Positions 33,348 through 35,774 of a DNA stretch of 35,774 nucleotides are shown one piece after another; position 1 is the first letter of the stretch; every line of letters begins with the position of its first letter. The translations under genes were made by a program, and so were the position numbers. This DNA is from a bacterium. GTDB taxonomy: Bacteria; JAHJDO01. A model generated the notes under the pieces. The model was not told the DNA's origin, did no database searches, and worked only from the letters and a program-made list of their open reading frames with translations. The DNA lies in NCBI GenBank assembly GCA_030611945.1, contig JAUWOV010000006.1, forward strand, positions 1-35,774, written 5' to 3'.

Positions 33348-33527
33348 TTCTCAGGTTGAATTTTTGCAATTTGGATTTCGTTATTTACACTGCATTATGC
33401 CACAAAACTAATTTTATAGTGTAAATATTTTCAGGCAATATAAAGTCCCACTTTGTCCTTTGGCTAAGAAGGGGGATTCAGGGGGCAAGGATGTATCTTG
33501 CCATTTCCAGCAAATTGTATATTTTTA

Positions 33528-33556
33528 TTGCGGCTTTAAGCAATTTTAAGTATAAT
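33528..33556 (+). promoter_or_regulatory. Promoter of the HEPN/MNT module
   Basis: TTGCGG (33528-33533)-N17-TATAAT (33551-33556), about 40 bp upstream of the GTG at 33597. Confidence 0.55.
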
Positions 33557-33596
33557 AGCATTAAAGTAGCTGTAAAATTGTGAGAGGACAATAGAA

Positions 33597-33896
33597 GTGA
33601 ATAAAGATGAAATAACGCGTTTGATGAGAAAAAGTCATGATGTGTTGGCGGCAGAATATGGTGTTTCCAGAATTGGCATTTTTGGATCGGCGGTAAAAGG
33701 TGTCATGACAAAAGATAGTGATTTAGATGTAGTTGTTGAATTCGAAAAGCCAATAGGTTTTAAGTTTATTAGACTTGTGGAATATCTTGAAAATTTATTC
33801 GGGACAAAGGTTGATGTGATAACGAAAGACGGGCTTGAAAATATACGAGTAAAAGAGGTTGCGAGAGATATTGAAAGAAATTTAGTTTATGTCTAA
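33597..33896 (+). CDS. mntA: MNT-type minimal nucleotidyltransferase antitoxin (MntA-like)
   Basis: GIFGSAVKGVMTKDSDLDVVVEFEKPIGFKFIRLVEYLENLFGTKVDVITKDGL: GSxxxG-x5-DSDLD nucleotidyltransferase motif. Confidence 0.92.
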   Translation: MNKDEITRLMRKSHDVLAAEYGVSRIGIFGSAVKGVMTKDSDLDVVVEFEKPIGFKFIRLVEYLENLFGTKVDVITKDGLENIRVKEVARDIERNLVYV

Positions 33897-34218
33897 AAGA
33901 AAAGATACTGCTGTTGTCCAGGATATGAAAGAATCTATTGATAGAATTATATCTTACACATCAAAGATAGAATATGATGATTTTCTACAGGACTACAAAA
34001 CGCAAGATGCAGTGATTAGAAATATTGAGATTTTGGGCGAAGCTGTTAAATTATTATCAGATGAAACAAAAGAAAAGTATCCAAATATTCCTTGGAAAGA
34101 CATTGCAGGCACAAGAGATAAACTAATTCATGATTATTTTGGTGTAAACATTGATGTTGTGTGGGATATTGCCAAGAATGAGATTCCGTCTCTATCCGTA
34201 TATTTAAAAGATATATAA
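33889..34218 (+). CDS. hepT: HEPN-domain toxin, HepT-like (DUF86)
   Basis: DAVIRNIEILGEAVKLLSDETKEKYPNIPWKDIAGTRDKLIHDYFGVNIDVVWDIAKNEIP with Rx4HxY motif (RDKLIHDY); overlaps the MNT gene. Confidence 0.93.
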   Translation: MSKRKDTAVVQDMKESIDRIISYTSKIEYDDFLQDYKTQDAVIRNIEILGEAVKLLSDETKEKYPNIPWKDIAGTRDKLIHDYFGVNIDVVWDIAKNEIPSLSVYLKDI

Positions 34219-34411
34219 ACGGCTAACGAATCAATCGCGTTATTTGCACCATGATTTCCTTTTACTAAACTCCATTTGTCCTGAATCAGAGAATCTCGGT
34301 TCGGTGCTTTGAAGAGTGATTTAGGGGATATGTAAAACTTCGCTTTCAAATTGTTGTGTAATCTCCTCGTAATATGATATTCTAAAGAATAGGAAAACAG
34401 GCGAAATAAAT

Positions 34412-34831
34412 GTGATAAAAGTATACTGCGACACTGGAGGATTTCGGCAGGAACTAGAAAATCTTCAAAAACAAGGAAAAATAAAGTTGATTATGTTTAA
34501 GTACGAAAACATAATCAAAAAAATAACTAATAGTGGAATACCTTCTGCTGCAACTATAGGTGATCTTAAAAAATATACAATTGGCACCCTCCCCAGAACA
34601 TTTGGAAATTATAAGGGTTCTAATAAATTTGAATCGTTAAAGCAAATAATAGGAGAGGAAAATAGAATAGATATTTTACATTTAGATTCGGTCTTTAAAT
34701 CGAGCTGCTCATTCTTCCTTACCAGAGACAAAAAAGATATCGTCTCTAAAAAAGAAATTATAGAAAAATTGCTCAGCATTAAAATTATACATTCTGATGA
34801 TGATTGGGAAAAATTCAGTTCATATTTTTAA
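34412..34831 (+). CDS. Putative PIN-like domain protein
   Basis: MIKVYCDTGGF (N-terminal Asp) and RIDILHLDSVFKSSCSFFLTRDKKDI (D..HL...TRD spacing like the PIN-domain C-terminal acidic motifs). GTG start. Confidence 0.5.
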   Translation: MIKVYCDTGGFRQELENLQKQGKIKLIMFKYENIIKKITNSGIPSAATIGDLKKYTIGTLPRTFGNYKGSNKFESLKQIIGEENRIDILHLDSVFKSSCSFFLTRDKKDIVSKKEIIEKLLSIKIIHSDDDWEKFSSYF

Positions 34832-34908
34832 AATAGTTTCTTACATCGTTGAATCTTGAGGTATTGTGCCTTGCAAGTAAGCGTATTGTCATTTTAAATT
34901 AATAAATT

Positions 34909-35774
34909 ATGAAAATTTTTATTTGGCTTTTTCTTGGATGGCTTGTTTATAAGTTTTTTGTTTTTTTATCAAAAGACGATTCAAACACAAATGAATTTTC
35001 CTCAAAAGATAGAGAATTAAATGCTACTTCTTCTAAGCTTGAAAAAGCCAAAGAATTACTAGATAAATCTTTTTATGCGGAAGCTGATTGTCTTTTTTTT
35101 GATGAAAAAGACCAGTTGATTAAGAAATACTATTCTTTAAAACAAAAATATATTCTTGGGTTTTTTAATGATAATTTTCCTTCTTTTGAAGGTGATAACG
35201 AAAAAGCTAGTGCCATATCAAATTTTTCTCCTGCTTTTTTACTAACGGCTAGAGCAGGGACAGGTAAAACATCGTCCATATTTCTAAAAATATCGTTATT
35301 GATAGAAAAATACAGTGCTTCTAAAAACGACATGTTAGTTTTAACATTTAATAAAAATGATTATAAAAACAAATTATTTGATTTTTTTAGTGATACTGAA
35401 TACCTGTCTATTGACGAAAATAGTACTACTTTAAGAGGGGAAATAGTTAAATCAAAAGGAGAAAGGTATATTGCTGATTTTTTGTTCCTACATGGGATAA
35501 AATATCAATACGAGAAGGGCTATATTTGGAATGGCAGAGTTTATAAGCCTGATTTTACGATATATGCTATCGACAAAATGATTATATTGGAACATTGGGG
35601 AATAGATGAAAATGACAAAAAATCTATTTCACCAAGTTTTGAAATTACTTGGGAAGAATATAAATCTCAGATGGATAGAAAAAGGGACTTCTGGAAAAAT
35701 AAGAATAAATATATTTTTATAGAAACATCAATAAAAGACATGTTTAGCGGTCAAACACATTTTAATTCCATATT
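34909..35774 (+). CDS. UvrD/Rep-like helicase with inserted PD-(D/E)XK-like nuclease segment and N-terminal TM helix (partial, runs off window)
   Basis: Own translation: MKIFIWLFLGWLVYKFFVFLSK...SPAFLLTARAGTGKTSSIFLKISLLIEKYSASKNDMLVLTFNKNDYKNKL...GEIVKSKGERYIADFLFLHGIKYQYEKGYIWNGRVYKPDFTIYAIDKMIILEHWGID. No stop to 35774. Confidence 0.72.
   Translation, partial: MKIFIWLFLGWLVYKFFVFLSKDDSNTNEFSSKDRELNATSSKLEKAKELLDKSFYAEADCLFFDEKDQLIKKYYSLKQKYILGFFNDNFPSFEGDNEKASAISNFSPAFLLTARAGTGKTSSIFLKISLLIEKYSASKNDMLVLTFNKNDYKNKLFDFFSDTEYLSIDENSTTLRGEIVKSKGERYIADFLFLHGIKYQYEKGYIWNGRVYKPDFTIYAIDKMIILEHWGIDENDKKSISPSFEITWEEYKSQMDRKRDFWKNKNKYIFIETSIKDMFSGQTHFNSI

Follow-up and report, generated by a model that had tools for sequence, protein, structure and literature searches.

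An incomplete UvrD-like helicase-nuclease gene at a contig end, probably a damaged or reduced copy of a widespread kind

The last gene of this contig raises the question of whether a helicase whose nuclease segment lies unusually early has an alternative working order or has lost a part. The window which we analysed, 35,774 nucleotides in length, is the entire contig C28 of a draft genome (119 contigs, 1.66 Mb, 91% complete), and the 5' part of the gene, 288 codons, lies on the forward strand at 34909..35774, where it is cut by the contig end. A sequence-only reading had described its product as a membrane-anchored UvrD-like helicase with a compressed domain order, and had suggested a role in defence or DNA uptake together with the neighbouring HEPN/MNT and PIN-like genes. 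We found that the gene belongs to a family of helicase-IV-like proteins with an inserted nuclease, that it lacks a segment of the motor and that it keeps the nuclease residues. In our estimate the probability is roughly 0.6 that it is a damaged or reduced copy of this known kind of helicase-nuclease, with a core motor element lost and the nuclease kept.

From the ATG at 34909 to the contig end at 35774 the frame is open throughout, giving 288 amino acids; the chance of 288 stop-free codons is ~1e-12 at the local base composition. The next in-frame start is not reached until codon 70, so any longer product would include the N-terminal hydrophobic helix. The missing 3' end, which would encode motifs II-VI, was not found on any other contig of the genome: C108 (1026 amino acids) and C57 (565 amino acids) were considered and rejected, each being another, complete UvrD-type gene, and a same-genus match, G001 C103, was rejected as a chance match inside a membrane protein gene. 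The 565-amino acid UvrD-like helicase on C57 (L021 2311-6651) adjoins type I restriction HsdS- and HsdM-like genes. All four same-genus genomes, G001-G004, contained a UvrD-type helicase match of 645-789 amino acids and none was found in G000, which is probably due to the incomplete draft. GC content drops toward the contig end, from about 0.35-0.39 to 0.27-0.34 within 33400-35774, a stretch spanning the HepT/MntA, PIN-like and helicase genes. This AT-rich segment is likely to have been horizontally acquired, since the helicase-nuclease gene has only 28% GC, against 35-42% in chromosomal genes which we sampled from the window.

Relatives of the gene were recovered from plasmids (45 records in a translated search) and from species genomes, where an alignment-led scan with a three-sequence alignment gave 154 loci, 80 of which were retained; the same genome scan with a single sequence gave no match. 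Only two relatives came from viral contigs. The family is widely scattered and not common, because only 3 of 289 genomes sampled across the domain had a match, our own included. We found no paper describing this group in the open literature, a search which excludes most subscription journals. The Walker A and nuclease residues are shared by 36 sequences. Full-length relatives are mostly 830-1200 amino acids long, and both the UvrD N- and C-terminal domains and the NCBIfam DNA helicase IV model were matched in all 34 of those examined. For NF008276, with a cut-off of 543 bits, the relative L026 scored 191.8 and our gene 20.8, a cut-off which a 288-amino acid fragment could not reach. The phage contig MT837260 was rejected as a family relative on account of its different architecture: this 7.3-kb, phage-labelled contig encodes a 1200-amino acid AAA_30/RecD-like protein (L012 697-4299) whose C-terminal part is a nuclease of the same type. 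It would seem, then, that this nuclease type has passed from one helicase family to another.

L026 (872 amino acids) was predicted to have a UvrD-type motor (model with mean pLDDT 82.5), and a fold search of the model returned UvrD, PcrA, Rep and AddA. Motif Ib is at 254-256 and motif II at 586-590, and the nuclease lies between them at about residues 345-446. The relatives share the SF1A motor architecture of DNA helicase IV (PRK11054, NF008276) and of UvrD, PcrA and Rep, but are about 150 residues longer between motifs Ib and II, where they carry a nuclease. In UvrD-family enzymes subdomain 1B leaves and re-enters subdomain 1A (review, PMC13238157), and we place the nuclease insertion of the relatives at the point where 1B leaves 1A. 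The family consists of widespread, mostly uncharacterised superfamily-1A helicases, related to DNA helicase IV and UvrD, with a PD-(D/E)XK nuclease inserted into the first motor domain. By analogy with UvrD, AddAB and RecB, a complete relative would use its ATP-driven motor to travel along single-stranded DNA and so deliver the nuclease to the strand.

Within our gene, a helical pre-helicase linker (residues about 37-95, 35017..35193), which resembles the EAD-LF segment of relatives, is followed by a match of residues 98-149 to the UvrD N-terminal domain (Pfam UvrD-helicase, E = 4e-6, above cut-off), bearing out the assignment to UvrD-like helicases. As in a UvrD-like SF1A helicase, both Walker A (motif I, ARAGTGKT, residues 114-121, 35248..35271) and motif Ia (MLVLTFNK, residues 142-149, 35332..35355) are present, and the domain 1A strand with motif Ib (TFH) is missing. 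The Walker A had been read as non-standard, but in this family ARAG[ST]GKT is the usual form; as it was also a search pattern, selection accounts in part for how often it occurs at the loci. The early position of the nuclease and the compressed order were both confirmed: 65 residues separate Walker A from the nuclease, compared to 139-195 (median 149) in 70 relatives from many phyla, which puts our gene outside the range of the nuclease-inserted group. At the upper end of this range is a subgroup with a spacing of 187-195 and an extra insert of ~40 residues directly after motif Ia (L042, L045, L047, L048, L054, L057, L059, L060, L067, L068, L070 and L077).

The shortening consists of two separate in-frame contractions, of about 64 and about 16 residues, with a conserved helix between them. 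The first (35356..35358) leaves 1 residue where relatives have 58-109, and motif Ib and its strand are absent; the second (35389..35430) leaves 14 residues where relatives have 29-54. The segment between them, DYKNKLFDFF (35359..35388), was rejected as the helix after motif Ia and matches instead the helix preceding the nuclease of relatives, with a score of 13.3 against -6.8 ± 6.0 for shuffled sequences; this test is generous, since the alignment had already placed the segment there, and more weight can be put on the difference between the two sites. Together the contractions remove motif Ib, its beta strand and neighbouring helices, which in the L026 model are strand 252-254 and helices 232-245, 255-263 and 278-296. 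Of 29 columns conserved in ≥ 95% of 67 aligned relatives, 25 are kept, and three of the four losses are the T, F and H of motif Ib, inside the gap. As had been suspected from a missing TFHS-bearing stretch after motif Ia, TFH is absent from our gene; it was found in at least 65 of the 67 aligned relatives (65-67 for each residue singly) and was invariant in the 34 full-length relatives. The fourth loss, Gln to Lys at residue 99, also occurs in relatives L053 and L034.

It could be argued that these codons are present in the organism and were lost when low-coverage or repetitive reads near the contig end were joined, as the genome is a draft in 119 contigs, the site is ~0.4 kb away from a contig end and the same gap occurs in no relative. 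A single wrong join would give a single gap, however, and not two in-frame contractions around a conserved helix, and no copy of the missing segment was found elsewhere in the assembly; we consider an assembly error unlikely. We give a similarly small chance to a compact but working helicase-nuclease in which other parts of the protein, perhaps past the contig end, replace the missing strand and DNA contacts. Such a variant would fit the open frame and the fact that Walker A, motif Ia and all conserved residues of the nuclease are retained, but TFH is retained by nearly all relatives across many phyla and, in the L026 model, is predicted to provide a strand of the 1A core. We therefore read the compression as a core motor element lost, in preference to a different order that still works. 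In the predicted structure of our gene (36 sequences) the helicase part is formed of helices without a sheet; a fragment lacking everything from motif II onwards might form none anyway, so the absent sheet alone is no proof of a broken fold.

The nuclease presents a different picture. The PD-(D/E)XK-type domain (residues 181-288, 35449..35772) contains KSKGERYIADFLF, YKPDF, IILEHWG, Y251 and K258, so that the KSxxE and YxPDF motifs, the conserved E (E228) and the downstream Y and K of the group are all present and every conserved nuclease residue is retained. It was modelled from 36 sequences with pLDDT mostly 87-96, and a fold search returned the PD-(D/E)XK-type proteins Bax1, Hjc and XisH with weak E-values (best 4e-3), which upholds the reading of this segment as a restriction-endonuclease-fold insertion. 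Bax1 and Hjc-type nucleases were among the best fold matches (Bax1: E 4e-3 to 0.3, probability up to 1.00), with low TM-scores and only the nuclease part aligning; Bax1 differs in being a protein of its own, which binds the XPB helicase. Residues 173-250 match nuclease-bearing models, nuclease segments of candidate defence proteins and plasmid UvrD proteins. Plasmid-borne UvrD-helicase proteins with an internal nuclease (Ca. Tenderia, Anabaena pANA03, haloarchaeal plasmids and others) have the domain order and nuclease residues of our gene, and the nuclease of the Tenderia protein is 45% identical to ours. The seven full-length plasmid proteins which we read have motif Ib or a counterpart and the full spacing, whereas our gene lacks about 80 residues.

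The N-terminal hydrophobic helix (residues 3-21, 34915..34971; helix 2-21 in the model) was also confirmed as a predicted membrane anchor, with a Kyte-Doolittle maximum of 2.02 over 19 residues. The hydropathy threshold was passed upstream of Walker A in 12 of 67 relatives, about ten of which look N-terminally anchored, so the predicted anchor is recurrent in the family and not unique to our gene; homologues do not all begin after the helix. Most anchored relatives form a separate branch of the tree (Bacteroidales, Erysipelotrichaceae, Coriobacteriia and Paenisporosarcina). Like our gene these have one N-terminal hydrophobic helix, which mostly lies 115-140 residues ahead of Walker A; unlike it they retain motif Ib. 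Our gene lies in the other branch, on a long end branch with no firm sister.

A membrane-tethered defence or DNA-uptake device acting with the adjacent genes would draw on the HepT gene (E = 1e-29) and MntA-like gene (NTP_transf_2, E = 2e-13) just upstream at 33597-34218. After this pair comes a 139-amino acid ORF (34412-34831, forward strand), PIN-like according to the sequence-only reading, with no above-cut-off match in Pfam, NCBIfam or PADLOC. However, homologues of the HepT, MntA-like and PIN-like genes were found at none of the fetched loci of relatives, and the defence reading thus rests on a single, unshared neighbourhood. Neighbourhood conservation, which had been proposed as a check, gave no recurring partner either: among 120 neighbours of about 43 relatives no family occurred more than four times. 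Defence families such as PglZ, SduA and type IV restriction each occurred once or twice among these neighbours. As raw hits, PADLOC gave partial matches of our protein, to the nuclease part of PDC-S68/S69 and HEAT_CxxC_PDDEXK and, weakly, to the Walker A region; full-length component matches with partners, as in a known defence system, were not found. The nuclease resembles that of the PADLOC candidates PDC-S68. From the neighbourhoods a defence role is possible for the family and unsupported for this gene, and a device of the kind described appears very unlikely. A damaged or reduced relative is a likelier reading of the gene than a new defence machine.

The damaged or reduced copy which we favour would have lost motif Ib, a core strand and flanking helices through the two in-frame contractions, keeping the nuclease and the N-terminal helix, and the most likely consequence would be a non-working motor. 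The outcome may be a recently damaged gene or a reduced, putatively membrane-tethered nuclease; the kept residues argue against an old pseudogene, and selection may therefore be maintaining the shortened form. A further idea, that loss of motif Ib made the motor of a membrane-anchored nuclease into an ATP-binding, non-translocating switch controlling it, is in our view a long shot. Nuclease-inserted helicase-IV-like proteins occur in many phyla and on plasmids, some of them with a predicted membrane anchor. A shortened form that proved real and maintained would test whether the inserted nuclease of this group can work without a translocating motor.
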